From contig NZ_JAUXXZ010000053.1 of the NCBI RefSeq assembly GCF_030684675.1, positions 1-37,667 of the forward strand: 37,667 nt of DNA, written 5' to 3'. Of the stretch, positions 1-13,830 are shown in pieces. The notes beneath the pieces are model-generated. The model saw only the letters and a program-made list of their open reading frames with translations. It was not told the origin of the DNA and ran no database searches. Each line of letters begins with the position of its first letter. Position 1 is the first letter of the stretch. Source of the DNA: Daejeonella sp. (lineage in GTDB: Bacteria; Bacteroidota; Bacteroidia; Sphingobacteriales; Sphingobacteriaceae). Made by a program: the position numbers and the translations under genes.

Positions 1-1300
1 TGTTCCGGATCCTGCTGTAGCATTCGCGTTCAGGATTGTTGTTCCAGAAGTACTACCTGCAATGATCAGTTTACCTACGTTGCCTGCTGCTCCGAAAGTT
101 TTTGCTCCGGTTACTGACTGTGTGCCGGCTAAGGTCATATCTCCCGCACTTGCTGTGATCCAGCTCGGGGCAAGGGTCGTTCCATTGCTCTGAAGAACCT
201 GACCTGCTGTACCGTTAGCCAGCATTGCAGTGGTTCCTGCTGTCGACTGGTACGGGATCTGTCCGCCTAATCCTGCTGCAAGGTTAGTTGCAGTGGTTGC
301 TGAAGTTGCACTTGTTGCTGTTGTTGCTGTAGCTGCATTACCGCCAATGTTCAATCCTGCTGCTGTTCCTGTGATGTTTGTTCCTACCAGTGCACTTGGT
401 GTACCAAGGGCCGGGGTAGTCAAAGTCGGTGAAGTCAGGGTTTTATTAGTTAAAGTCTCTGTGCCGTCTAAGGTAGCCAGGGTGCCTGTAGTTGGAAGAA
501 CGACTGTTCCGGATCCTGCCGTCGCATTCGCATTCAGGATTGTTGTTCCAGAAGTACTACCTGCAATGATCAGTTTACCTACGTTGCCTGCTGCTCCGAA
601 AGTTTTCGCTCCGGTAATGCTTTGAACTCCGGCCAGGGTCATGTCACCTGTTCCGGCATTCACCCAGCTTGGGGCAAGGGTCGTTCCATTGCTCTGAAGG
701 ACCTGACCTGCTGTACCGTTAGCCAGCATTGCAGTGGTTCCTGCTGCCGACTGGTAAGGGATCGTTCCACCAGATCCCGCCGCAAGGTTAGTGGCTGTGG
801 TGGCCGTGCCAGTCACACTTCCGGTAATCGGAGCGGTAACCGTTAGGCCACTCAAAGTTCCAACTGAAGTCAGGGATGAATTAACTATTGCCGGGTTCAG
901 CGTTGTCCCTGTTAGTGTATTTGCATCCGCCGCAGCGCTGATCGTAATATCTGCTGAACCATCAAATGCTACTCCGTTAATATTTTTTGAAGCTGCAAGT
1001 TTGGTGGCTGTTCCGGCATTTCCGGCAACATTACCAGCAATGGGATTGGTTACCGTTAGATCTGTTAAGGTACCCACAGAAGTAATGTTTGGCTGAGCTG
1101 GAGCTGTAACAGTAGCTGCGCTACCTGTTACACTTCCCACAACAGGATTGGTAACTGTCAGATTAGCCAAAGTTCCAACCGATTTCAGGGACGAATTGAC
1201 TACAGCAGAATTTAGTGTAGTTCCGGTTAATGTACCGGCGCTTGCCGCAGCGCTGATTGAAATATTTGATGAACCATCAAATGCTACTCCATTGATAGTC
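1..1300 (-). repeat. in-frame tandem repeats inside the surface protein (504-bp and 315-bp periods)
   Basis: Positions 1 to about 300 recur almost unchanged at 505 to about 800. The period is 504 bp, exactly 168 codons, and most differences are single bases. A second, smaller repeat recurs with a 315-bp (105-codon) period: the codons for NGVAFDGS lie near 956-985 and again near 1271-1300. Both periods are multiples of three, so copy number can change without breaking the frame. The 504-bp array continues beyond the left edge. Confidence 0.85.
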
Positions 1301-2022
1301 CTTGGAGTTGCCAATTTTGTAGCTGTGGCTGCATTTCCTGTAATACTTCCCACAATTGGAGCAGTCACCGCTAATCTGGTCAGGGTACCAACAGAAGTAA
1401 TATTCGGCTGTGTTTCATTGGTTACAGATTGAGCAGTTGCAGAAGTAACAACTGTCGGAAGCCAGGTAGTACCATTCCAACCCAAAACCTGGCCGGTAAG
1501 TGGTACTGTAGCTGATACTGCATTACCCTGAAGCCGGTTTGCATTCCAAATTGCAGAATTTACATTTGCTGAAAGAGCACCGGTATTGTCTTTGATAATT
1601 GAAATATTGTCAACTGTAATATTCGAAGTCTTATTGTTCAAATCGGTGACAGTTGCAAAGGATACCCATGCCCCGTTCTCCCTGACATAGAATTTATTAT
1701 CAGCAGAATTATAAACCAACATACCATTGACCGGAGAGGCAATAGCAGTAAGCGCAGTGATACGAGGCATCAGGATAGCTTTATTTGTCCCATCAATCTG
1801 AAAGGCAACATTCTGGTTAGTAATGGTAGCCGAACCGATAGCAATTCCCTCTGCGTTCAGTATTTGCTTACTGTTCATATCGAGATCCTTTGCTGCCATA
1901 TGGTCTCCCAAATTGTCACCAAGCTTAATCTGCCTCGATTGCCCCTGCACTGTACTTATTGCTCCTAGCAAAACGCCTGTCAAACAGGCCAAACGGATAA
2001 ATCGTTTCATTGAGTATTTCAT
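1..2022 (-). CDS. repetitive tail-fibre-like secreted surface protein, 3' end beyond the left edge
   Basis: An uninterrupted minus-strand frame of 674 codons runs off the left edge, so the C-terminus is missing. It opens with a signal peptide (MKYSMKRFIRLACLTGVLLG, cleavage near VQGQ); ATG at 2022 or 2010 are both possible, without a clear ribosome binding site. Next comes a module shared with the upstream gene at 2081-2845 (AILMPRITALTAI, then GMLVY and FYVRENGAWV). The rest is Ala/Thr/Gly-rich beta-repeat sequence with phrases such as NGVAFDGS, GTLATLDGTETLTNKTL and IPYQS.AGTTAML, of the kind found in phage tail fibres and large surface adhesins. The gene is last in an operon with a type B T9SS-sorted protein and PorP/SprF, so surface display is inferred. 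No C-terminal sorting signal can be judged here. The function is unknown; adhesin or fibre is my guess. Confidence 0.8.
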   Translation of the reverse strand, partial: MKYSMKRFIRLACLTGVLLGAISTVQGQSRQIKLGDNLGDHMAAKDLDMNSKQILNAEGIAIGSATITNQNVAFQIDGTNKAILMPRITALTAIASPVNGMLVYNSADNKFYVRENGAWVSFATVTDLNNKTSNITVDNISIIKDNTGALSANVNSAIWNANRLQGNAVSATVPLTGQVLGWNGTTWLPTVVTSATAQSVTNETQPNITSVGTLTRLAVTAPIVGSITGNAATATKLATPRTINGVAFDGSSNISISAAASAGTLTGTTLNSAVVNSSLKSVGTLANLTVTNPVVGSVTGSAATVTAPAQPNITSVGTLTDLTVTNPIAGNVAGNAGTATKLAASKNINGVAFDGSADITISAAADANTLTGTTLNPAIVNSSLTSVGTLSGLTVTAPITGSVTGTATTATNLAAGSGGTIPYQSAAGTTAMLANGTAGQVLQSNGTTLAPSWVNAGTGDMTLAGVQSITGAKTFGAAGNVGKLIIAGSTSGTTILNANATAGSGTVVLPTTGTLATLDGTETLTNKTLTSPTLTTPALGTPSALVGTNITGTAAGLNIGGNAATATTATSATSATTATNLAAGLGGQIPYQSTAGTTAMLANGTAGQVLQSNGTTLAPSWITASAGDMTLAGTQSVTGAKTFGAAGNVGKLIIAGSTSGTTILNANATAGSGT

Positions 2023-2080
2023 ATAATCCGATAAAAAATCTATATCATTATGATCTGCAGATTTCCTGCTTCACACTGAC

Positions 2081-2845
2081 TTATTTCATTAATAAAACTT
2101 TATACTGTGTTCCGATAATTGTTACGGGATCGGACTGATAATTAGCGAAACGTATGCTTACTTCATTTGTAGCACTGACCCATGCATTGTATACTGAAAA
2201 ATCGGGAGTATCTCCAATCAAGGCGACAAAGACGATATCTCCCAGAACGGCTCCTGAAACATTAACCTTTACTACGTTTGTACTATTGGGTTCAATAATT
2301 ACATTTTCTCCTGAAGTAGTATTAAATTCCTTTGCCTTTTCAACAATCGCAGTCGATACCTGTAAGATCGACTTAGGTTCCCATGCAACTCCGTTCCAGG
2401 TAAGAACCTGGCCTGAAACCGTTCCCGGAGATGCTGTAATCTGAGTTGCAGGATTTATTTTACCACCAATATTCCCAAGATTCAACTTGGTTTCATCTAC
2501 ATTGACATTGATATTTGTACCGCTATTTGACACCCCGCTCAGGAAATTCCAAACTCCATTCTTACGAACATAGAGTCCTTGTATAGGTGCTTTTGTAAGA
2601 TAAATAAGCATACCATCCAATGGATTCAAGGCATTTATTGCAATAGTATCGCTCAATCGAGGCAATAATAAACCCTTGGTATCACTCTCCAATTCAAGGA
2701 TGGAAGCGCGCTGAATCTGATCAGGATTTGTACCTATTTTTACCTGAGCCTGGCTAAGATTTACGCAAAAAAGGCATAAAATGACAAAAAGAGCAGTGCT
2801 TAGGCTCTTACTCTGAATAAATTTCGGGGGTAATTTACTTTTCAT
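2081..2845 (-). CDS. secreted protein with the N-terminal module of the repeat protein
   Basis: 254 aa with an N-terminal signal peptide (hydrophobic stretch about residues 17-31, cleavage near LSQAQ). Residues about 35-105 contain VKIGTN, ILELESDTKGLLLPRLS, DGMLIYL and LYVRKNGVWNFLSG. This module recurs in the downstream neighbour and is common in Bacteroidetes surface and tail-fibre-like proteins. A linker with GQVLTWNGVAWEPKSIL also resembles the neighbour. The C-terminal ~90 residues are a compact region without an obvious T9SS sorting domain. It starts 3 bp after the PorP/SprF stop and ends 58 bp before the repeat protein, so it belongs to the same transcript. The role is unknown; I infer a short paralogue or assembly partner of the downstream fibre. 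Confidence 0.75.
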   Translation of the reverse strand: MKSKLPPKFIQSKSLSTALFVILCLFCVNLSQAQVKIGTNPDQIQRASILELESDTKGLLLPRLSDTIAINALNPLDGMLIYLTKAPIQGLYVRKNGVWNFLSGVSNSGTNINVNVDETKLNLGNIGGKINPATQITASPGTVSGQVLTWNGVAWEPKSILQVSTAIVEKAKEFNTTSGENVIIEPNSTNVVKVNVSGAVLGDIVFVALIGDTPDFSVYNAWVSATNEVSIRFANYQSDPVTIIGTQYKVLLMK

Positions 2846-2848
2846 GAT

Positions 2849-3790
2849 TTAAAAATATCTTGGTGAAAGGGCCGTTCTATTAAATGAGAATTCATATCTC
2901 AAGATCACTTCGTGAGAACCCTTTGAGATTATATTGTACTCTGATATACTATGATCATATGCATATCCCAAATGCAGTTCAGGGACTAATTTGAGATCAA
3001 TTATTCCTACCATTGCGGTTTTATTTCGATATGAGAATCCAAGACCAAGCATATCGGATATCCAGAAATTTGTGTTGATATCATAGGAAATCGGACTTCC
3101 GGCTACGCCCCGAACTAAAACAGATGGCTTAATGTGAAGATCATCACTGAGTGCAAAAACATAGCCTGTATTGAAATAAATATGCATTTGCTGCTTGAGT
3201 TCGCTGAACGCACCGGTATTGTTTTCCTTATTGAAGTTATTTCGGATTAAATTAGGTGATGAAAGTCCAACATAGAAAGTTTCAGTATTAAAAAAGACTC
3301 CGGTGCCAAAATTCAGTTTGAGAGAATTGATATTCTGACTGAAAGAAGGATCATTCGGATCAATGACATCAACCTTGGTGTAATCTGTTTTGAAATTATA
3401 AACTCCTCCCTGTAAACCAAGTGAAATAGTAGAATAGGGTCCGGTTGGAATCTTGAATGAATAAACACCCTGTGCTCCAAGGGTCTTTGTAATTTCATCC
3501 CTATCGTCAAGTAATTTTATACCCACTCCGACCCGTTTACCAGATATGGGCATATCTGCAGCAAAAAATGCACTTTGAGGGGCAGTTTTAAATCCTGTAT
3601 ATTGTTTACGGAACATTGTGGTTATGCTCAAAGCATCCCTGAAGCCTGCATAGGCAGGATTAATTTCCAAGGTGTTAAACATATATTCAGAAAAAAGAGG
3701 CAATTGTTGGGCAATCAGATTTTGCGATCCGGTAAGAGATATAATCAAGCAAAATAATACCCTAATTGTTCCTTTAAACATAAGTTTCAT
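2849..3790 (-). CDS. type IX secretion membrane protein, PorP/SprF family
   Basis: 313 aa with a signal peptide ending near NLIAQQ, followed by the family hallmark LPLFSEYMFNTLEINPAYAG and repeated amphipathic beta strands to the C-terminus (ILRYEFSF), as in the PorP/SprF outer-membrane barrels. The length fits the family (about 300-340 aa). Members usually sit next to a gene for a protein with a type B C-terminal sorting domain and are thought to help its secretion or anchoring through the T9SS. Here the start codon overlaps the stop of just such a gene by one base (TAATG), implying translational coupling. This is probably a substrate-dedicated paralogue rather than the core PorP of the secretion machine. 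Confidence 0.9.
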   Translation of the reverse strand: MKLMFKGTIRVLFCLIISLTGSQNLIAQQLPLFSEYMFNTLEINPAYAGFRDALSITTMFRKQYTGFKTAPQSAFFAADMPISGKRVGVGIKLLDDRDEITKTLGAQGVYSFKIPTGPYSTISLGLQGGVYNFKTDYTKVDVIDPNDPSFSQNINSLKLNFGTGVFFNTETFYVGLSSPNLIRNNFNKENNTGAFSELKQQMHIYFNTGYVFALSDDLHIKPSVLVRGVAGSPISYDINTNFWISDMLGLGFSYRNKTAMVGIIDLKLVPELHLGYAYDHSISEYNIISKGSHEVILRYEFSFNRTALSPRYF

Positions 3791-5106
3791 TACCTGTTAA
3801 TGATGATATAGCCCGTTACAGGTTTTGAGTCATTAAAGTACAAAATATAATAATATGTTCCATCAGGAAGATTATTGTTAACCAATCCCTTCTGATTTCC
3901 TATTCCTTCAAAAGTGTTTTTGTAATTAGTATCCCTGAAAACAAGACTTTGCCATCTGTTGTAAATATCAATTCTGACTTTATCAGTAGCTTTGAGATTC
4001 TCAATTACAAATTTGTCATTCAAACCATCATTGTTAGGCGAAATACCAACAGGAACCCTATAATTTGCAAGCACATTTTCCTTTACAACAGATTTTGAAA
4101 AATATTCGTTTAAACCTATTCCACCACTAATTGTTCGTGTATTGATGAATGCGCCGGGAATTGGGCTACCTGAAGAAATTATCCCTGGTGTAAGCCCGGT
4201 ACCATTTGTAGAATCCCACTTCTCAATATTTGACTGATACCTGCTGAGGAAACTTTTTGTTTTGTCGGCAGTAAACTGTGAACCTTCTTCGGATGAATGA
4301 TGCTGAGCACTCAATACAATATTGGCATTAGGGTCAAGATTTGTAAGTGATAAATTCCATGTTTTAGTTACGAAATTTACATTGTCAGGGTTTCCAAATG
4401 TAGCCTTGTCGTAAACGTTATCGAAAACCCTTAGCTTTAAATCCTGGGCAATACCGGTATAAGTAATGGAAGCCGGTGCGTAACTACCAACAGTTGATCC
4501 AAGTGGAAAGATGATTTGAGTGTTCTGTGAACCACTAGTTTTCCTGATTAAAGAACCACCACTGGTAGCCGTGCCTGTAACGAAATATTTATTATTATCA
4601 AAGCCGGCAATGTTGGCTCCAATTTGCATTATTGCATTTCTGTTATTCAGAATCACCTTGCCACTCAGAAAATTAAAACTTCTTCTGACCAGAAGGTCGT
4701 TGCCCTGAAGAATTAAATTTTGTGGATTTGCAAGGGTAATATTAGGGAATCCTGTATTATTCTGCGCGTTGGTTAAAGTGTTGATATTTTGGGGGGAAGT
4801 TGTTCCTGAAAATCTAATGGTTCCACCTAATCCGGTTTGACCACCTGTACTCTCATCTACTATCCGACTTCCGCTCATATTATTCCAGCGCTGACCAAGA
4901 AAATTAATTGTAGACAGGTTGTAAGATCCAAGAGAACCCGAGTTATTTAAATCAGAAAAAACCGAAACATTCGCCTCAGGATGAACATAAAAAGATTCAC
5001 CTGAGTGAACAGTCATCTGCACAATTTCCTGTGCCCTCAAAACAGAAGGAAACAGAATAGAAAAGGCAAATAAAATATATAGTTTATGTGTTCTGTTTAA
5101 ATGCAC
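3790..5106 (-). CDS. T9SS type B sorting domain-containing surface protein (gliding-associated C-terminal domain)
   Basis: 438 aa. The signal peptide is hydrophobic at about residues 9-23, with cleavage after VLRAQ. The middle (about 30-340) is beta-rich and of unknown function. The last ~90 residues match the gliding motility-associated C-terminal domain (CHU_C, type B T9SS signal): VGISPNNDGLNDKFVIENL, then VRIDIYNRWQSLVF, LPDGTYYYILYF and a terminal GYIIINR. This domain directs passage through the type IX secretion system and cell-surface attachment. It is the first gene of the minus-strand operon that continues with PorP/SprF, the usual partner. No clear TAnnTTTG promoter was found in the ~150 bp upstream. 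The passenger domain was not recognised. Confidence 0.9.
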   Translation of the reverse strand: MHLNRTHKLYILFAFSILFPSVLRAQEIVQMTVHSGESFYVHPEANVSVFSDLNNSGSLGSYNLSTINFLGQRWNNMSGSRIVDESTGGQTGLGGTIRFSGTTSPQNINTLTNAQNNTGFPNITLANPQNLILQGNDLLVRRSFNFLSGKVILNNRNAIMQIGANIAGFDNNKYFVTGTATSGGSLIRKTSGSQNTQIIFPLGSTVGSYAPASITYTGIAQDLKLRVFDNVYDKATFGNPDNVNFVTKTWNLSLTNLDPNANIVLSAQHHSSEEGSQFTADKTKSFLSRYQSNIEKWDSTNGTGLTPGIISSGSPIPGAFINTRTISGGIGLNEYFSKSVVKENVLANYRVPVGISPNNDGLNDKFVIENLKATDKVRIDIYNRWQSLVFRDTNYKNTFEGIGNQKGLVNNNLPDGTYYYILYFNDSKPVTGYIIINR

Positions 5107-5560
5107 TATGCTCTAAATAATTACTTCAAAAAGGTCTATAACTAAACCCATTGGATGTATAAAGCCATAATCATACCATCGGCAAATTTTTTGGCTCTAA
5201 AGACCATTAGAAGATTATTTATTACTAATATCGTGCTTTAAATCGGCAAAAACGACATTTATTTAATTTTAACGATAATTATTTTATAGATTGTAAAAAT
5301 AAAAAAGAAGCAATGTAGATTAAATTACCCATTTTGTAGATTATTTTCTACGAAAGCGAGAATTTAATATCTCCGGAGGCAATTTTATTTTCCCAGAATA
5401 AATCCAGAAAATTGAAATTGGAAAATACTTTTAGACTGATAGTCCGGGGGAAATGCAGGACTAAATAAACAGAAAATCAGGACAATTTTAAGCCCCGAAT
5501 TCAATCCTGAAGGAAGGATTTTATGAATTTAAAATCCGAAAAAAAATAGAAGCTTAACAA
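5107..5560. other. AT-rich intergenic region without a recognisable gene
   Basis: About 450 bp between the surface-protein operon and the rpsJ remnant. Short stops occur in all frames and no plausible coding stretch was seen. It must contain the promoter of the minus-strand operon starting at 5106, but no TAnnTTTG box with a spaced TTTG was convincing. Small inverted repeats are present (for example GTAGA...TCTAC near 5336-5352) without a clear role. Confidence 0.5.
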
Positions 5561-5590
5561 AAAAAGCCATCCAAAAGGATAGCTTTTTTT
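5561..5590 (-). terminator. intrinsic terminator next to the rpsJ remnant
   Basis: The arms AAAAAGCCATCC and GGATAGCTTTTTTT are separated by AAAA. Read on the minus strand, the single irregular position is a U-G wobble and the stem is followed by a T-run; on the plus strand it is a C-A mismatch. It therefore fits best as a terminator for minus-strand transcription. It lies about 15 bp beyond the stop codon of the rpsJ 3' remnant, where the original rpsJ terminator would be expected. Confidence 0.75.
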
Positions 5591-5605
5591 AATGAATTTA
5601 TGAAT

Positions 5606-5651
5606 TTAAACCTTGATTTCTACTTCAACCCCACTTGGCAATTCAAGCTTC
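5606..5651 (-). pseudogene. 46-bp duplicate of the 3' end of rpsJ
   Basis: Identical to the last 46 bp of the intact rpsJ (9961-10006) except for one base. On the minus strand it encodes [14 protein letters not shown] plus the stop codon; the difference is synonymous (Leu TTG here, TTA in rpsJ). Similarity ends sharply inside the gene. It is in the same orientation as rpsJ, so the two copies are direct repeats bracketing 4.3 kb. Best read as the displaced original end of rpsJ left by an insertion. Confidence 0.85.
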
Positions 5652-5655
5652 TCCA

Positions 5656-5724
5656 GTTAATCTTAAATTTTGGATTAGTCCGAAAATGAATCAGTTAAGT
5701 GGGCTACAATTATTTAAGATTAAC
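5656..5724. repeat. 13-bp perfect inverted repeat just inside the cassette's left border
   Basis: GTTAATCTTAAAT at 5656-5668 is repeated in inverted form at 5712-5724, with a 43-bp spacer. It begins 4 bp after the rpsJ fragment ends. A recombinase-binding site or a 5' regulatory structure is possible. A short palindrome (CCAGTAACTGG) follows at 5736-5746. Confidence 0.6.
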
Positions 5725-5899
5725 CAGTTTGAAATCCAGTAACTGGTATTAATATTCTTTTATAAAAAATAGCTTTAATTATTTTTTATGTATAAATTTA
5801 ATAGTATGTTGAAAATTACTCGCCAGGATAATTAAATCAACTTAGCGGAATCCGAAAAGCTAAAGAGTAGGAGACACACTTTACCTAAATTATTTAACC

Positions 5900-6225
5900 A
5901 TGAAAAAAAACTAGCACTAAGCCTTTTCATGTTATTAATGACTGTTTTCACATTTGCAGAAGAAAAAAGTAAAACCATTGAAAAAATCGAACCCTCAAAA
6001 GTTGAGGCGCAGGTAAGTTCAATGGAAACTGAAAAGATGAACACTTCGTTGGACATAAAAAAGATTTCAACAAGCACCTCACGAATAGAGATAAAAGTAA
6101 TAGAAAATTGTTATGGGGGGATGACGAGTTGTGGTATTGGCTATATGTGGTGTCAGGAACAGCCACTGACAGGAGCAGATCAATTAACTATTTGGGATGC
6201 TTTTAACAATGCATATTGTGGTTAA
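5900..6225 (+). pseudogene. small secreted Cys-containing protein with start broken at an A8 tract
   Basis: From ATG 5900 the frame reads Met-Lys-Lys-Asn-stop. If the run of eight A (5903-5910) had nine, it would read MKKKLALSLFMLLMTVFTFA and enter the long open frame that continues to 6225, giving a textbook signal peptide and a product of about 107 aa. As sequenced, the only in-frame ATG is at 5929 (98 aa), which cuts off the charged start of the signal peptide. The mature part is Lys/Glu/Ser-rich, followed by a C-terminal region with four cysteines (NCYGGMTSCGIGYMWCQ and AYCG at the end), suggesting disulfides or modification. It is first in line before the GLPGLI and outer-membrane genes. 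A sequencing indel, a real mutation, phase variation or transcriptional slippage could all explain the frame. The family is not recognised. Confidence 0.65.
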
Positions 6226-6240
6226 ATAAAAACAGTTTTA

Positions 6241-6280
6241 ATGGGTAATCTACAACAGAAAATAGGTTGCCCATTTTTAT
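6241..6280 (+). terminator. terminator-like hairpin between the small-protein and GLPGLI genes
   Basis: The arms ATGGGTAATCT (6241-6251) and AGGTTGCCCAT pair over 11 bp with two G-U wobbles, and a run of T follows. It lies 16 bp after the small gene's stop and just before the GLPGLI start at 6292. It would limit read-through, so the small protein may be made in excess of the downstream membrane proteins. The ATG at 6241 is the base of this stem, which argues against it as a start codon. Confidence 0.65.
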
Positions 6281-6291
6281 CTCCTTCTCCT

Positions 6292-7119
6292 ATGAAAAAA
6301 ACCATCTTCTATACCGTATTATTATTATTTTCCTACTTATTTTCCTATGCACAAACATCTGAAAGTGTAATAGCAAAGGCAAACTACAAGCTAACTCACC
6401 ATTATGATACCGCAGATTTCAACCGTATCAATACCGAAAACTTTATTGTGTATTTAGGAAATAGCTCAGCGCATTATAAAAGCTACGACAGGCAATTACA
6501 GGACTCTGCGATGTTATCAAGTTTTCAGAAAGAAGGAGCAATGGCCCCTCCCGCTGGAAGAAGATACGATGACGAAGAAATTTACAACTATTATAATGAG
6601 AAAAGAATGTTCACATCTACTACAACGCTAGGTAAGTTTATTGTAGAAAGATCATTTCCTCAAATTGACTGGAAGATACTTCCAGAAAAAAAGCAGCTCA
6701 ATGGTTATAACTGTCAAAAAGCTGCCGGCTCATTTCATGGAAGAAATTATGTGGCATGGTTTACTGCAGAGTTGCCTTTTAACGCCGGCCCCTGGAAATT
6801 AAATGGCTTACCGGGGTTTATTATCCATGCCACTGACGAAACGGCACGGATTCTATTTGAATTGAGCGGGTTTCATACCGTTCAAAATTCAGTTGAAAAA
6901 ACAATTTGGGACAGGAAAGAACGATTGCCAATTACCTGGGATGATTATAAAAAACTGGCAAAATTTGCCCAGGAAGATCCTATAGGATTTATTGAACAGA
7001 GATTTGGTGGTAAAGTAACTGTTTCTCCGGGCGCTGTTCCTAAACATATCAGTCCTCTTTTACCCAGATCATACATTAATTTCCCCTTAGAAGCCATTAA
7101 CTATTATTCCGAATATTAA
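6292..7119 (+). CDS. GLPGLI family protein
   Basis: 275 aa from ATG 6292, chosen because it gives a clean signal peptide (MKKTIFYTVLLLFSYLFSYA-Q); an in-frame ATG 17 codons earlier lies in a hairpin. Residues about 134-177 carry the family core: LNGYNCQKA, YVAWFTAELPFNAGPWKL and GLPGFI (172-177), a variant of the naming motif GLPGLI. The family is Bacteroidetes-specific, exported, and of unknown biochemical function; members often stand beside an outer-membrane receptor gene. Here the next gene, 41 bp downstream, is an outer-membrane beta-barrel protein, and a small secreted protein gene lies upstream. A joint role in handling a periplasmic or surface substrate is inferred from context only. 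Confidence 0.88.
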   Translation: MKKTIFYTVLLLFSYLFSYAQTSESVIAKANYKLTHHYDTADFNRINTENFIVYLGNSSAHYKSYDRQLQDSAMLSSFQKEGAMAPPAGRRYDDEEIYNYYNEKRMFTSTTTLGKFIVERSFPQIDWKILPEKKQLNGYNCQKAAGSFHGRNYVAWFTAELPFNAGPWKLNGLPGFIIHATDETARILFELSGFHTVQNSVEKTIWDRKERLPITWDDYKKLAKFAQEDPIGFIEQRFGGKVTVSPGAVPKHISPLLPRSYINFPLEAINYYSEY

Positions 7120-7160
7120 TCAACACATTAAGCTCAGATCTTCCAGTTAAACTTAATGAG

Positions 7161-9890
7161 ATGTTCCCTAAGTTTATTTGCTCAATTACAAAAAAAAGGG
7201 GAAAGCTCTTATTTAGCTTATTCTGGCTATCTGTCATCTGCAATATTTCTTTTACTTCAAATGCGCAGCAAAAGATAATTTTAACAGGCACGGTCCAAAC
7301 TCCTGACAAGGTCGTTTTGCCGCATGTTACTGTATTGCTTATTCATCAAGCGGATTCTCTCATCAGCAGCTATACAAAAACAAATGAAAAAGGGCAGTTT
7401 TTAATTCAACTTCCCAATGGCATTAAGCTAATTAGCGAATACGTACTTAAAGTAAACTTGCTGGGATACAAACTTCAGGAAATTAACTTGAGCCCGGGTA
7501 TAAAAGAATATAATTTTGTTCTTCTGGAAAGCCCACGAGTTTTAAAAGAAGTGCTTGTCACAGCTAAGTTTCCGGTAGTAAAAATGAGCGGGGATACCAC
7601 CACTTACCGGGCAGATGATTTTGCTACTGCACAAGACCGGACAATTGGAGATGTTTTAAAGAAAATACCGGGTATAACTGTTGAGAACAACGGACAAATA
7701 AAATTTAACGGACAGAGTGTGACAAGACTTTATTTAGATGGTGATGACCTGCTGGAAAGCAAATACAACATCGCAACCAGAAGTATACCGAATGACATGG
7801 TAAACCAAATCCAGGTTTTGGAAAACCATCAAAACATTAAGGCTTTGGAGGGAAAAGTTTTTAGCGATGCGGTGGATATTAACTTAACATTTAAAGATAA
7901 TGCGAGACTAAAGGTTTTGGGTCAGGCCGATGCCGGCGGGGGTTTACCAGGTTTATATGAAGGGGAATTGAATGCAATTTCCCTAAAGAATATCTATAAA
8001 GCCATCCACACCGGCAAACTAAATAATACTGCAAAAACATTATCAGATGACGTGCTTTCATTAAATGCTCTGCAGGAAGCCATAAAACGTGGTAATAATC
8101 CACAGGCACCACAGCTCTCGGCAGGAACAGGTCAGTCCCCGCCTTTAGACAGGAACAGGTATTTTTTCAATCATTCGGGCCTGGCCAATAGCGCTAATCT
8201 CTGGAAATTAAAATCTGATGCACAATTAAAATCGAAAGTATATTATCAATATGATGATGAGAAGCAAAAGTATCAAAACCAAACCAGTATCCTGCTTCCT
8301 GATGAGGTAATCAGGTTTTCCGAACAACAGGATAATAGTATCCTTCATCAAAATTTTTATGCAGACCTTATCCTCCATAAAAATAAAAGCCAATTCTATC
8401 TCAATAACAAATCCACCTACGAATATAAAGATCGCAAGGATGAGGCTAACCTGAAGGCGAATGAACAGAGCAGACTGCAACAATACCGTGGCCGGGAATA
8501 TGCTTTTTCTAATGAAACAGATCTGATCAGAACACCTAAAGGGAAAACCCTTACACAATATTATTCCTATATAAATTTCACGACCTATCCCGAAGTCCTT
8601 GTTATAGACAGCCTCCGGCTGCCGGGAATATTTCAAACAAGCAATACGCTGAATGACATTAATCAGCTTACCAGGATACCCACCTTCTTCACTAATAATC
8701 ATGTTACCCTACAAAAGAACAGCGGTCGTTTCAGTCAATCCTATAAATTCGGGATCTCTGCCAATATCCAGGAATTCAGATCCACTTTGCAGGCAGAATC
8801 ACCCGACGATAAGCTAATTTTCCCTGATTCGTCAACGAACCAACTCAGATGGAATGAGTATAAGCTTTACGCTGAACCCAATTATGAGTATATGGCGGGG
8901 AATTTCAGAATTACATTCAAGCTACCCTTCGAATACCAGTGGATTCACGCTGAGGATCAATTTTATGATTATAGTAAAGATGACCAAAGATTATTGCCTA
9001 ATGCGGCCTTAACTGTCAGGTATAACCGCCAAAAAGGTTTTTCAGGAAATATATTTATCACCCGGACAAGGTCAGCGGGAAATTTTCTTCAGGCTTACCA
9101 GGGGTTGATACTTAGTAATTATCGTTCAATCAGTCAGAATGACGATCCGTTTAGTACTTCAACGCATTTTAACATGGGAACCTCATTAAATTACAAGAAT
9201 CCTGTAAAGCTCCTGTTCATCAATGCGTCGGGGTTTTATCGGCAAACCTCTTTAAATACAATAGCTTACGCGAGTATTGATTCTGAACTTTCTTATACTG
9301 AAAGACGTTTGATGAATAATACGGCGGGGTCCTATAACCTTCAAACAGGCATCAGTAAATATCTCTTTAACCTGCATTCTACAATTGGCTTATCCTATTC
9401 TTTACAATATGGCAAAAGCAATCAATTGATTAACGGGCAACTCTACCCATTTATTAACCAGGCTCAACTGCTAAGCGGGAAATGGAATGGTTCAGTCAGT
9501 AAAAAAATCCGCTACTCTTATCATTTTGCCTATCAAACGTATGATAGCTATTCGCAGGATGCTGGGACAATTATTAAACCTTATGCCATTAAAAATACCA
9601 GGCATGAAGTAGATTTCGAATTTGATCTTTCATCAAACATGTTCCTGAGGGCTAATGCAAGTTCGGTTAATAATAAAAACAACAGCGGTTTAAACAGGAG
9701 TTATTTTTTTACTGACCTTTTAGCCATCTACAAATTAAAAAAGCTGAAAGCGGATATTTCATTTGAAGGAAGGAACCTGGCGAATGTCAAAAATTACGAA
9801 GTGGCTTCATCTTCACTAAACCGGCAATCGTTTTACAACTATCCTTTAAGGTCAAGAATGTTCATTATGAAAGCACAATTCAGATTTTAA
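7161..9890 (+). CDS. outer-membrane beta-barrel protein, TonB-dependent receptor type
   Basis: 909 aa with a signal peptide (about residues 1-36, ending SNAQQ). Residues about 38-125 form a carboxypeptidase-regulatory-like domain (LTGTVQTPDKVVLPHVTV...LLGYKLQEI). A plug-like domain covers about 128-245 (KEVLVTAKFPVVKMSGDTTT, DVLKKIPGITVENNG, VTRLYLDGDDLL). The remainder is a large barrel with many aromatic-terminated strands, ending in Phe (KAQFRF), as expected for BAM-inserted barrels. It resembles the Bacteroidetes outer-membrane beta-barrel family related to, but distinct from, SusC. The order small protein, GLPGLI, barrel suggests export or uptake of a peptide-like or metal-containing ligand, which is inference. 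It ends in a terminator shared with the convergent rpsJ. Confidence 0.88.
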   Translation: MFPKFICSITKKRGKLLFSLFWLSVICNISFTSNAQQKIILTGTVQTPDKVVLPHVTVLLIHQADSLISSYTKTNEKGQFLIQLPNGIKLISEYVLKVNLLGYKLQEINLSPGIKEYNFVLLESPRVLKEVLVTAKFPVVKMSGDTTTYRADDFATAQDRTIGDVLKKIPGITVENNGQIKFNGQSVTRLYLDGDDLLESKYNIATRSIPNDMVNQIQVLENHQNIKALEGKVFSDAVDINLTFKDNARLKVLGQADAGGGLPGLYEGELNAISLKNIYKAIHTGKLNNTAKTLSDDVLSLNALQEAIKRGNNPQAPQLSAGTGQSPPLDRNRYFFNHSGLANSANLWKLKSDAQLKSKVYYQYDDEKQKYQNQTSILLPDEVIRFSEQQDNSILHQNFYADLILHKNKSQFYLNNKSTYEYKDRKDEANLKANEQSRLQQYRGREYAFSNETDLIRTPKGKTLTQYYSYINFTTYPEVLVIDSLRLPGIFQTSNTLNDINQLTRIPTFFTNNHVTLQKNSGRFSQSYKFGISANIQEFRSTLQAESPDDKLIFPDSSTNQLRWNEYKLYAEPNYEYMAGNFRITFKLPFEYQWIHAEDQFYDYSKDDQRLLPNAALTVRYNRQKGFSGNIFITRTRSAGNFLQAYQGLILSNYRSISQNDDPFSTSTHFNMGTSLNYKNPVKLLFINASGFYRQTSLNTIAYASIDSELSYTERRLMNNTAGSYNLQTGISKYLFNLHSTIGLSYSLQYGKSNQLINGQLYPFINQAQLLSGKWNGSVSKKIRYSYHFAYQTYDSYSQDAGTIIKPYAIKNTRHEVDFEFDLSSNMFLRANASSVNNKNNSGLNRSYFFTDLLAIYKLKKLKADISFEGRNLANVKNYEVASSSLNRQSFYNYPLRSRMFIMKAQFRF

Positions 9891-9908
9891 AGAAGGTCCG
9901 GCTAAAGC

Positions 9909-9945
9909 AAAAAATCCGGCTTGCATTTTGCAATCCGGATTTTTT
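9909..9945. terminator. bidirectional intrinsic terminator between the barrel gene and rpsJ
   Basis: The arms AAAAATCCGG and CCGGATTTTT enclose an inner pair TTGCA/TGCAA with one mismatch. A- and T-runs on both sides make it work in either direction. It lies between the convergent stops at 9890 and 9961. Confidence 0.9.
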
Positions 9946-9960
9946 CAGAAAGCTTTACCG

Positions 9961-10266
9961 TTAAACCTTGATTTCTACTTCAACCCCACTTGGTAATTCA
10001 AGCTTCATCAGGGCATCAACAGTCTTGGAATTAGAACTGTAAATATCAAGTAAACGCTTGTAAGCACATAACTGAAATTGCTCTCTACCTTTCTTATTTA
10101 CGTGCGGTGAACGCAAAACTGTAAATATTCTTTTCTCTGTAGGCAAGGGAATTGGTCCGCTTACCACCGCACCCGTAGGTTTAACGGTTTTAACGATCTT
10201 CTCAGCAGATTTGTCCACGAGATTGTAATCGTATGATTTTAATTTAATTCTGATTCTTTGGCTCAT
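9961..10266 (-). CDS. rpsJ: 30S ribosomal protein S10
   Basis: 101 aa, full length for bacterial S10. It starts [20 protein letters not shown] and carries the conserved [29 protein letters not shown] and the terminal [15 protein letters not shown]10 belongs to the 30S head and also acts as NusE in antitermination. It is the last gene of the str operon here. In many Bacteroidetes rplC, rplD and the rest of the S10 cluster follow directly; here the transcript ends at a terminator instead. The last 46 bp are duplicated at 5606-5651, which marks this gene end as the presumed insertion site of the neighbouring cassette. Confidence 0.98.
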
Positions 10267-10330
10267 TATTGTTTGTTTATGGTTAACGTTAGAGCTATTA
10301 GTAACGGTAACCGGTTAAAATATTTGACAC

Positions 10331-10399
10331 AAGAACCAGGAACCAAGATTCAAGACGATAAATCCTTGGTTTTGATTCTTGGCTCTTGATACTTGATTC
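10331..10399. repeat. snap-back array of 7-bp repeats between fusA and rpsJ
   Basis: Four 7-bp units lie on the left (AAGAACC, AGGAACC, AAGATTC, AAGACGA; 10331-10358). They face at least four units of the opposite sense on the right (TTGATTC, TTGGCTC, TTGATAC, TTGATTC; 10372-10399). The two sides can fold into a long imperfect hairpin in the mRNA. It occupies half of the 136-bp gap between fusA and rpsJ. It is related in design to the arrays at 13560, 26124, 27457 and 28032. Confidence 0.75.
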
Positions 10400-10402
10400 T
10401 TA

Positions 10403-12508
10403 TTAAGCGTTTGCTTTTTTCCCCTTCACCTTGGCAACAACCTCTTCCTGAACGTTCCTTGGAGCTTCAGCATAGTGATCGAATTCCATTGTAGAAGTAG
10501 CACGTCCTGAAGTGATGGTACGTAACTGGGTTACATAACCAAACATTTCTGAAAGTGGCACAGTCGCTTTAATTACCTGAGCACCAGCACGTGTATCCAT
10601 ACCCAAAAGTTGACCACGACGACGGTTCATATCTCCGATCACATCACCCATATTCTCTTCAGGAGTCAGGATTTCGATCTTCATAATAGGCTCCATCAAT
10701 ACTGGCTTACATTTTGGCAATGCTTCACGGAAAGCAGATTTAGCACAAATCTCGAAAGACAGTGCATCTGAATCGACTGCGTGGAATGATCCATCAATCA
10801 GACGAACCTTCATATCCTGCAAAGGATATCCGGCAAGCACACCATTTACCATGGCTGCAGCAAAACCTTTCTCAACAGAAGGAATAAATTCACGCGGAAT
10901 AGAACCACCTGAGATCTCATTCACAAACTGCAAACCGGTCTTACCTTCATCATTTGGAGATATAATAATCTGAATATCAGCAAATTTACCACGACCACCG
11001 GTTTGTTTCTTATATGTTTCACGGTGTTGGGTAGTACCTGTAATGGCTTCCTTATAAGAAACCTGAGGCGCTCCCTGGTTTACTTCAACTTTAAACTCAC
11101 GTTTCAGACGATCCATTATAATATCAAGGTGAAGCTCGCCCATACCTGAAATAATGGTCTGGCCGGTTTCTTCGTCTGTTTGTACGCGGAAAGTAGGATC
11201 TTCTTCAGATAATTTACCTAAAGCCATACCTAACTTATCTACGTCAGCCTGAGTTTTAGGCTCAATTGCCAAACCGATTACCGGCTCAGGGAAATTCATC
11301 GATTCTAAAACAATAGGATGCTTCTCATCACAAAGTGTATCACCTGTTTTGATATCCTTAAATCCAACTACTGCAGCAATATCTCCGGCTCCAACATTAG
11401 GAATAGGATTTTGCTTGTTAGCGTGCATCTGGAAAATACGTGAAATACGCTCCTTATTATCAGAACGCATATTATGTACATAAGAACCTGCTTCAAGATT
11501 ACCTGAATATACACGAATGAAACACAAACGACCTACGAAAGGATCGGTTGCAATCTTAAATGCCAAGGCCGCGAATGGTTCTTTCTCACTTGGCTTACGC
11601 ACAATTTCTTCGCCTGTTTCAGGATTTGTTCCAACAATACCTTCAACATCCATTGGTGATGGCAATAATTCCATCACATAATCAAGCATGGTTTGAACAC
11701 CCTTGTTTTTGAAAGATGAACCACATACCATTGGAACGATTTTTGCATCAAGAACCGCCTTACGTAATGCATCTAAAACCTCACGTTCGGTGATTGTTTC
11801 CGGAGCATCAAAGAACTTTTCCATTAAAGTCTCGTCATATTCTGCAACAGACTCCAGTAATTTTTCTCTCCACTCAGTAGCTTCAGCAACCATATCATCA
11901 GGAATTGGCACTTCAGTAAAGGTCATACCTTTATCATGCTCATTCCAAACAATACCACGGAAGTTGATCAGATCAACTACTCCTTTAAAGCTATCTTCGG
12001 CACCAATTGGTAATTGCAAAGGAACTGCATTGCTTCCAAGCATATCCTTAACCTGCTTAACAACTTTTAAGAAATCAGCACCTGAACGGTCCATCTTATT
12101 CACGAAACCTATACGGGCTACGTTATAATTATTTGCTAAACGCCAGTTAGTTTCTGATTGTGGCTCAACACCATCAACAGCCGAAAAAAGGAATACCAAC
12201 CCATCCAATACACGTAATGAACGATTCACCTCTACGGTAAAATCCACGTGTCCCGGAGTATCAATGATGTTGATATGGTAAGTTTGATCTCTGTATTTCC
12301 AGTTAACTGTTGTAGCTGCTGAAGTAATGGTAATACCACGCTCCTGCTCCTGCGCCATCCAGTCCATCGTTGCGGCACCATCATGCACCTCACCAATCTT
12401 ATGGCTCACACCAGAGTAGTAAAGAATCCGCTCAGTTGTTGTGGTTTTACCCGCATCAATATGGGCTGCAATTCCAATATTTCTTGTGTATCTTAAATCT
12501 CTTGACAT
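10403..12508 (-). CDS. fusA: elongation factor G
   Basis: 701 aa, normal length for EF-G. GTPase motifs: [13 protein letters not shown] (G1, from residue 15), the switch I region with [23 protein letters not shown] (G3) and NKMDRSGAD (G4). Domains II-V follow, with the conserved [14 protein letters not shown] and a C-terminal [20 protein letters not shown]. The protein drives ribosomal translocation and, with RRF, ribosome recycling. It sits 14 bp after rpsG in the str operon. A second, more divergent EF-G may exist elsewhere, as in many Bacteroidetes, but this operon-borne copy is the housekeeping one. Confidence 0.98.
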
Positions 12509-12522
12509 TATTTTATTTCCTG

Positions 12523-12990
12523 TTAGAATCTGAAATGAGAGAATGCTTTATTAGCTTCTGCCATTTTGTGAGTATCTTCTTTCTTCTTAACTGCAGCTCC
12601 TTCACCCTTAGAGGCTGAAATGATTTCTCCGGCTAATTTCTCGGTCATGGTTTTTTCACCACGCTTACGTGAATAGTTGATCAGCCATTTCATTCCCAAA
12701 GCGATTTTACGCTCAGGACGAACCTCAGTAGGTACCTGGAAGTTTGCACCACCAACACGACGGGATTTAACCTCTACCGCTGGCATTACATTGTTCAAAG
12801 CTTTTTTCCAGGATTCTAATCCGTTTTCGCTTGTTTTTTTCTCTACTAATTCAACTGCATCGTAGAAAATAGAGTATGCGATAGATTTTTTACCGTCATA
12901 CATCATATTATTTACAAACCTGGTTACCATTACGTCGTTAAACTTTGGATCAGGCAGTAAGATTCTCTTTTTTGGTTTTGACTTTCTCAT
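12523..12990 (-). CDS. rpsG: 30S ribosomal protein S7
   Basis: 155 aa, full length. It starts [20 protein letters not shown] and contains the conserved [20 protein letters not shown] and [19 protein letters not shown]. It ends [15 protein letters not shown]7 nucleates assembly of the 30S head. It lies 19 bp after rpsL and 14 bp before fusA, the standard str-operon order. Confidence 0.98.
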
Positions 12991-13009
12991 GTTGCTTTCC
13001 TCCGTTTAA

Positions 13010-13423
13010 TTATTTCTTTTTCCCTTTTGCAGGTGCGGCAGCTGCCTGACCTGGCTTTGGTTTCTTAGTTCCGTATTTAGAACGACGTTGGTTACGACCA
13101 GCTACACCGGATGTATCCAAAGCACCACGGATAATGTGGTAACGAACTCCTGGTAAATCTTTCACACGACCTCCACGGATTAATACAATAGAGTGCTCCT
13201 GTAAATTGTGACCTTCACCCGGAATGTAAGCATTCACTTCTTTTCCATTGGTTAAGCGCACACGGGCAACTTTACGCATTGCTGAGTTTGGTTTTTTAGG
13301 GGTAGTGGTATACACACGTGTGCACACTCCTCTTCGCTGTGGACAGCTGTCCAACGCTGGCGACTTACTCTTGTCGACCAGAGCTACTCTACCTTTTCTA
13401 ACTAATTGTTGGATAGTAGGCAT
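13010..13423 (-). CDS. rpsL: 30S ribosomal protein S12
   Basis: 137 aa. It starts [12 protein letters not shown] and contains the decoding-centre segments [21 protein letters not shown] and [13 protein letters not shown]. Lys is present at the position (PKKPNS) where substitutions give streptomycin resistance in other bacteria, so the sequence is wild-type there. The C-terminus has a lysine/alanine-rich extension ([14 protein letters not shown]), which is common in this phylum. It is the first gene of the str operon, with a consensus promoter at 13494-13524. Confidence 0.98.
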
Positions 13424-13493
13424 TTTTTCCTTTTAGTGTTTATATAATTTAATCCCTGCACCTCAGCTTATTACAGCTTTCATTTAGGGACTG

Positions 13494-13524
13494 CAAAAGT
13501 AGGAAGTTTATTTTGATTTTCAAT
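13494..13524 (-). promoter_or_regulatory. str-operon promoter (Bacteroidetes type)
   Basis: On the minus strand an ATTG box (13521-13524) precedes TACTTTTG (13494-13501) by 19 bp. This matches the Bacteroidetes primary sigma consensus TTTG-N19-21-TAnnTTTG except for one base in the -33 box. It leaves a leader of about 60 nt before rpsL. The leader contains a CCCTAAATGAAAGC...AGGG-type pairing that might form a small hairpin. Confidence 0.75.
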
Positions 13525-13559
13525 GGGTTGGGCGAGAATTTATTTGGGGTTGAAGATGA

Positions 13560-13629
13560 GGACTGAGGTATGATGTCTGAAGACAGAAGTCTGAGGTTGA
13601 TGACAGATAACTGATATCTGATATCTGGA
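13560..13629 (+). repeat. tandem array of degenerate 7-bp repeats
   Basis: Ten consecutive 7-bp units, starting GGACTGA, GGTATGA, TGTCTGA, AGACAGA, AGTCTGA and drifting to AACTGAT, ATCTGAT. The consensus is close to RGTCTGA. It lies 36 bp upstream of the -33 box of the str promoter. No coding potential is seen. Confidence 0.75.
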
Positions 13630-13660
13630 AAGCAAGGCCTGTTACTTGAATTATTGTAAG

Positions 13661-13694
13661 CCCGGCTTTCCCCGTCCGAATGGCTTCAGCCGGG
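13661..13694. repeat. REP-like palindrome
   Basis: CCCGGCT at 13661-13667 and AGCCGGG at 13688-13694 form a 7-bp stem around a 20-nt loop. The loop and right arm (GTCCGAATGGCTTCAGCC) resemble the palindromic units near 35046-35085. The rest of 13630-13830 holds nothing recognisable. Confidence 0.5.
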
Positions 13695-13830
13695 AGGGAG
13701 CTATAGTTTTGGATTTGACTATTTAGCTTCCATAATTTATAGGAGCTTTGGAGCTTTTTGCTCTTTCCTGAACGATTTTTGGAAGCCTAGCAAATGCTTT
13801 TCGGAATCTTGCAGTAATTACAGATTCCAA

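Follow-up and report, generated by a model that had tools for sequence, protein, structure and literature searches.

The window analysed here, a stretch of 37,667 nucleotides from Daejeonella sp. (family Sphingobacteriaceae; RefSeq assembly GCF_030684675.1, contig NZ_JAUXXZ010000053.1, positions 1 to 37,667, forward strand), carries a cassette of about 4.3 kb inserted behind rpsJ, the gene for ribosomal protein S10. The insertion is confirmed by two close relatives, G006 and G015, in which the site is empty. Displaced gene ends of the same kind (scars) recur in the family behind rpsJ and behind a second gene, which we take to be osmC. We lean towards homologous recombination anchored on the 3' end of the core gene as the process that brought in that end, a terminator and the cargo.

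The features of the insertion site are as follows.

5561..5590, minus strand: displaced native rpsJ terminator, identified by its fold and its likeness to the rpsJ-proximal hairpins of loci L031 and L035
5606..5651, minus strand: displaced remnant of rpsJ, a truncated copy of its final 46 bp with the stop codon
5652..9960, no strand: the inserted cassette itself, about 4.3 kb, which the empty sites lack
9909..9945, no strand: cassette-side bidirectional terminator next to the intact rpsJ, folding on both strands, with no close match among the compared flanks
9961..10266, minus strand: intact rpsJ (ribosomal protein S10), an open reading frame (ORF) of 101 amino acids (aa), similar to plasmid-record genes annotated as rpsJ

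The last 46 bp of rpsJ (9961-10006) recurred at 5606-5651 in the same orientation with 45 of 46 positions identical, and the single mismatch was synonymous. When positions 5540-5800 were searched against the 4.25-Mb genome, the second copy had an E value of 1.1e-15 and the next-best match 0.011, and no third copy of the repeat was found. The minus strand of 5555-5600, which contains the outer terminator, folded at -18.4 kcal/mol (z -5.9). The region beside the intact gene (9893-9950) folded on both strands and was unrelated to the outer terminator. The outer terminator resembled those of L031 and L035 (scores 82 and 78; five shuffles 24-33), and the best match of the inner one among the compared rpsJ flanks scored only 32 (five shuffles 21-28). 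By eye, a hairpin stood behind rpsJ in the 18 rpsJ loci viewed, from 17 of 20 genomes of the genus set, and was weak in L048. The genes upstream of rpsJ are, judging by position and size, presumably fusA, rpsG and rpsL.

At the empty site of G006 (L031), window positions 1116-5651 aligned to 249-4787 and positions 9961-13500 to 4742-8286, so that the alignments from the two sides of the cassette overlapped by exactly 46 bp. G015 (L035) showed the same ends, at 5497 and 5452, and again an overlap of 46 bp. An earlier note on this DNA, made from the letters alone, had proposed that a cassette inserted at the rpsJ 3' end, pushing away the end of the gene together with its former terminator. Its repeat, its minus-strand terminator beside the distal copy and its different, bidirectional terminator beside the intact gene were all recovered, and the empty sites and the terminator likeness support the insertion itself. 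The note had looked to relatives for rpsJ joined directly to a terminator like 5561-5590, and this arrangement is present in both congeners. It would have given way to a cassette without empty sites or to a widespread 46-bp repeat; empty sites exist, and the repeat was found at only two places in this genome. The boundaries shift: the noted range, 5606..10006, included both repeat copies, and the insert proper is 5652-9960.

Recurrence of the scar behind rpsJ

A DNA search of 399 family genomes with rpsJ, scoring at most two candidates per genome, matched 352 genomes, seven of them twice. Scars were found behind rpsJ in eight genomes, that of the window included. They lay on single contigs in G000 (46 bp), G139 (134 bp), G167 (54 bp), G243 (174 bp) and G384 (39 bp), and a query from genus g15 added two more, in G427 (54 bp) and G436 (183 bp). 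In G019 (36 bp) the contig breaks off within the insert, and its outer flank matches G018, where the site is empty. A more sensitive alignment test covering 67 of 70 flanks singled out seven (scores 63-122), none of the others exceeding 29, which was also the highest score of the reverse-complement control. By genus, scars were found in 4 of the 135 matched genomes of g15 (G442 not counted) and in 1 of 142 in g14. G146 and G442, whose two rpsJ matches sit on separate contigs of contaminated bins, were left out of the count of rpsJ scars, and a 25-base match in G013 was taken as chance. Several of the genomes are drafts or mixed bins.

The insertions found measure approximately 0.55-5 kb, and their cargo varies among lipoprotein-like, barrel-like and other proteins, assigned by sequence and mostly without a family search. 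For the genes lying past the scar in G139, G167, G384 and G427, relatives stand directly behind rpsJ in other genomes, whose sites are the empty ones; the G427 cargo also stands behind rpsJ in G299 without a clear scar. In G243, which is an apparent tandem duplication, a neighbouring membrane-protein gene is partly duplicated too. Compared across species rather than strains, the rpsJ flanks differ widely in content. No tyrosine-recombinase motif was present in the 252 ORFs of the 70 rpsJ flanks, a search that used a single motif and did not cover serine recombinases or transposases.

Two further observations concern the slot itself. Small genes that we take from their sequences to be toxin-antitoxin-like are frequent near rpsJ in genus g15 (for example in L113, L115, L117, L123, L127-L130 and L284), where they appear to be older occupants. 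Repeat-rich surface-protein genes lie in the operon beside the slot at window positions of about 790-1410 and in L047 at 7770-13775, as seen from self-overlapping alignments and from repeat copies.

Cassette content and a second target gene, osmC

The cassette of the window contains a leader and three genes, all on the plus strand.

5842..5873, plus strand: leader matching the DUF805b RNA, Rfam RF02914 (41 bits, gathering threshold 35.6)
5899..6225, plus strand: small secreted Cys-containing peptide with a signal-peptide-like start (27% identity over 108 aa to the L156 peptide, E 3e-7)
6241..7119, plus strand: GLPGLI family protein (TIGR01200, 157.9 bits, cutoff 50; 42% to its L156 counterpart)
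7161..9890, plus strand: outer-membrane receptor-like protein (barrel), 909 aa (PF07715 plug domain, 25.6 bits, cutoff 23.9; 55% to G150)

The two larger ORFs thus match non-recombinase families, and the small peptide matched no Pfam or NCBIfam family above cutoff; PF13620 on the receptor-like protein stayed below its cutoff (29.3 against 32.3 bits). The signal-peptide-like beginning of the peptide frame at 5899 lies beside an A-tract and has no in-frame ATG, the first one being at 5929. A relative in G150 has an intact start, and the lack of a start in the window may be due to slippage, to decay or to an error of sequencing. An inverted repeat of about 13 bases at 5656-5723, within the cassette and close to its left end, was noticed by eye; it is below the minimum length used in the repeat search. 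For the receptor, 200 of the 399 family genomes had a match at E 1e-60. Its nearest relative among the matches listed was that of G150, in another genus (55% identity); among the same matches, 18 of the 19 other congeneric genomes had none at E 1e-60, and G001 had one at 31%. No close receptor homologue was confirmed in GTDB contigs. A plasmid or phage vector was considered and rejected, the receptor matches in 26 plasmid records and one phage record being below 60% identity, and none of the five plasmid and three phage records with rpsJ matches being named as this family.

In G150 (locus L156), a homologous peptide-GLPGLI-receptor cassette is convergent with a gene that we take from its sequence to be OsmC-like (osmC). 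The last 66 bp of osmC recur, 82% alike, at the far side of the cassette beside a strong hairpin. An osmC search in 18 genomes of the G150 genus gave an extra partial match in two, G150 and G090; it missed a scar in G146 that was found separately, so the osmC counts are lower bounds. The site is empty in G104, G081 and G134, where a presumably YtxJ-like gene is followed by a short gap and osmC. Different neighbours and no scar were found at osmC in G071, G037, G126, G109 and a second contig of G150. G090 carries a lipoprotein-like cassette, a 210-bp osmC end (94.8% alike) and the YtxJ-like gene beyond it. The arrangement in G150 is nested, with a lipoprotein gene related to that of G090 outside and the peptide-GLPGLI-receptor cassette inside, and the 95 bp beside its osmC end are identical to G090. 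The osmC end and left border of G150 are found again in G146 (89% over 367 bp, counting the gene end), but the cargo there is four other genes, and the native terminator and the YtxJ-like gene lie beyond the scar. A single junction is thus seen with two outer surroundings and two different cargoes, and cassettes are stacked on osmC. At both rpsJ and osmC, the outer neighbours of the slot differ between genomes and are common to some relatives, and the rpsJ or osmC side is conserved. These osmC scars rule out rpsJ as the sole possible target.

In the same position, ahead of unrelated cargo, a DUF805b-like leader is present in G150 (19.0 bits at L156 1061-1088) and in G146 (24.1 bits at L339 1805-1836), both scores below gathering, an arrangement that reads as a shared leader with exchanged cargo. 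The GLPGLI-receptor pair itself was also considered as a general mobile unit with gene-end repeats. This was rejected on 23 loci (G150, G182, G099 and 20 other high-ranked receptor matches), of which only G150 had such repeats. In L158, repeats of 64 and 39 bp span the pair and lie in front of the GLPGLI gene and a BlaI-like gene; they were read as shared control regions and not gene ends. GLPGLI-receptor pairs adjoin what is presumably an M56/BlaI-like regulator pair in L158, L324 and L336, downstream of the receptor in the latter two. The upstream sequence shared in L158 (2659-2722 and 8640-8703) is possibly the operator of the regulator.

Among 665 genes in 41 stretches (40 of 20 kb and the window), a truncated downstream copy of a gene end was found only for the rpsJ of the window, the sole other pair being tandem paralogues. 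In 179 loci enriched for rpsJ (1773 genes), copies of at least 36 bp were the rpsJ and osmC cases, with few exceptions (repeats or paralogues in L035, L037 and L047; a neighbour gene in L087); shorter copies measured 28 bp in L195 and 26 bp in L207. Eighty named rpsJ loci gave one 16-base match and no scar. Genomes with two matches numbered 7 of 352 for rpsJ vs 1 of 382 for the control gene rpsO (p 0.026), and 5 of 350 vs 1 of 382 without the window and the contaminated bin G146 (p 0.09). This is a modest enrichment, read with the control differing in design: rpsO is less conserved, short decayed ends may be missed, and its single double, G357, was counted from match number alone.

Weighing the routes of insertion

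In the route that we favour, the incoming DNA piece would have carried the cassette together with an rpsJ 3' end and its own terminator, and would have integrated at rpsJ by homologous recombination without an enzyme of its own. The product would be an intact, probably chimeric rpsJ, the donor terminator and the cargo, and then the leftover rpsJ end of the recipient with its old terminator. A linear fragment with homology at one end, once circularised, could give such a product by a single crossover. A truncated gene end, once present at the far side of a cassette, could also serve as a second short homology arm into relatives with the same gene, whatever their downstream context. We infer a role of RecA, circularisation or the second arm, and the route of DNA entry. 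The core gene stays intact only when the incoming piece contains the stop codon, and this would account for the bias to the 3' end.

Terminators and codon differences bear on the two sides of the junction. The terminators on the two sides are unrelated in the window, G427, G436 and G150. In G427, the one beside the intact rpsJ best matched L116 (87) and the one beside the scar L123 (113); in G436, the inner one matched L116 (67) and the outer one, weakly, G384 and L123 (43 and 41); in G150, the inner terminator resembles G146 and the outer one G090. The lineages of the two sides are thus mismatched in some cases. Between the osmC copies, codon differences were mainly synonymous (9 of 12 vs 3 other in G150; 7 of 11 vs 4 other in G090), as expected for two formerly used genes rather than a decaying duplicate.

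A tyrosine integrase, since lost or acting in trans, might instead have placed a non-autonomous cassette at an attachment site in the rpsJ 3' end, with a replacement gene end. The geometry, repeats that include the stop codon, the carriage of a terminator and the stacking at osmC would all fit. The earlier note had likewise thought of an element like those in tRNA genes, with a ribosomal protein gene as an unusual target; such genes are in fact used by streptococcal integrative and conjugative elements (ICEs), which are described as inserting at the 3' ends of rplL, rpsI and rpmG with 12-54 bp repeats (PMC4701971). Of the features of integrase islands and ICEs, direct repeats at a gene 3' end were found here, and neither a recombinase (among the family matches of the cassette or, by the tyrosine motif, in the rpsJ flanks) nor a constant attachment core. 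The tyrosine-recombinase motif occurred in none of the flank ORFs searched, repeat lengths range over 36-183 bp behind rpsJ and 36-210 bp with osmC included, one cassette type sits at two unrelated genes, and the insertions found are of the sizes given above. A site-specific element is therefore not supported, and we regard the integrase route as unlikely. Scars of 36-183 bp, varied cargo, two target genes and the missing motif fit gene-end recombination better.

We hold it improbable that a linear donor was joined by homology at one end and illegitimately at the other, the far joint falling by chance in the gene end and anew at each event. This would account for the scatter of scar lengths and for proximal terminators of another lineage in G427 and, more weakly, in G436. 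However, G146 and G150 share the 66-bp joint and left border despite different outer surroundings, so that a joint is able to move or to be passed on, and published events of this type generally give deletions (PMC3240628). Tandem duplication of the gene end together with the adjacent gene, one copy then being lost or diverging, would need no foreign DNA and agrees with the partly duplicated membrane-protein gene of G243 and with the alike terminators of G384, G167 and G139. The empty sites, the unrelated terminators in the window, G427, G436 and G150, and a receptor in the window without a counterpart in the genus beyond the 31% match among those listed all speak against it; it is disfavoured for the window itself, and as a general account we hold it very improbable.

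Several observations weigh against recombination at the gene end as well. Homology arms of 36-66 bp are short by the standards of homologous recombination. Inner and outer terminators are alike in G384, G167 and G139, so local duplication is possible there. At the rpsJ scars few codons differ, and the changes are of both kinds (synonymous/other: G000 1/0, G384 3/1, G427 1/2, G139 0/1, G436 4/1, G167 none), the count for G243 being unreliable because its alignment has an indel. The two rpsJ ends of the window differ by one synonymous base, and therefore no donor lineage or direction can be read from them; the rest of the gene showed no clear break. The donor was not found, rpsJ being the 3' neighbour in none of the 23 receptor loci, and only one of these loci (G150) had a gene-end repeat across the pair. 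The osmC ends of G146 and G150 are only 76% alike, so the transfer was not very recent or the end was exchanged. A chimeric contig in either genome is compatible with these draft, contaminated assemblies (G150, 77% complete with 4% contamination; G146, 7% contamination), and this slightly lowers our confidence. Integrases, too, are described as leaving direct repeats, 12-54 bp long, at the 3' ends of genes (PMC4701971).

Relation to known systems and meaning

The minimal mobile element (Saunders and Snyder 2002, as cited in PMC8627216), transferred by homologous recombination alone, likewise places variable content beside conserved genes; it is described as defined by two conserved flanking genes, whereas here one core gene may suffice, with its truncated end at the far side. 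Transfer hotspots without integrases, with recombination at flanking core genes (Oliveira et al. 2017, PMC5635113), share with the present case a hypervariable slot beside a core gene and no recognised mobile element. The displaced gene-end scar and the stacking on one gene appear to be additional features of the present case. When DNA homologous at one end only was introduced into Escherichia coli, polymerase chain reaction showed partial duplications of lacZ in 56 of 60 clones (14 sequenced, 109-950 bp), explained by a single crossover of circularised molecules (PMC3240628). Foreign DNA is there, too, flanked by a variable-length duplication of the homologous segment, as a laboratory product at lacZ; here the arrangement is natural, at rpsJ and osmC, and apparently recurrent. 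The streptococcal ICEs also target gene 3' ends and leave direct repeats, but they encode an integrase, their repeats span 12-54 bp, and almost all of their tyrosine integrases group by insertion locus (PMC4701971). A limited literature search returned no description of gene-end cassettes or of an rpsJ hotspot in Bacteroidetes, and the anchor on one gene with a carried gene end, together with the stacking, seems to be new.

A wider and more tentative proposal, possible in our view though doubtful, is that the Sphingobacteriaceae hold recombinase-free mobile cassettes addressed by the 3' end of a core gene, each consisting of a truncated gene end, a leader and cargo. The repeat formed on insertion would permit pop-out as a circle or copying by double crossover into relatives at the same gene, the newest cassette lying nearest the gene, so that cassettes could stack and exchange cargo under a shared leader.

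Integrases are absent from many transfer hotspots, for which recombination at core-gene flanks is described as statistically inferred (PMC5635113). A core-gene end left displaced documents individual events in the DNA itself: it marks the slot and orders the insertions, and together with the paired terminators it can tell the donor from the recipient side. If the proposed route is correct, the 3' end of a core gene would be enough for the entry of unrelated genes for surface or secreted proteins.

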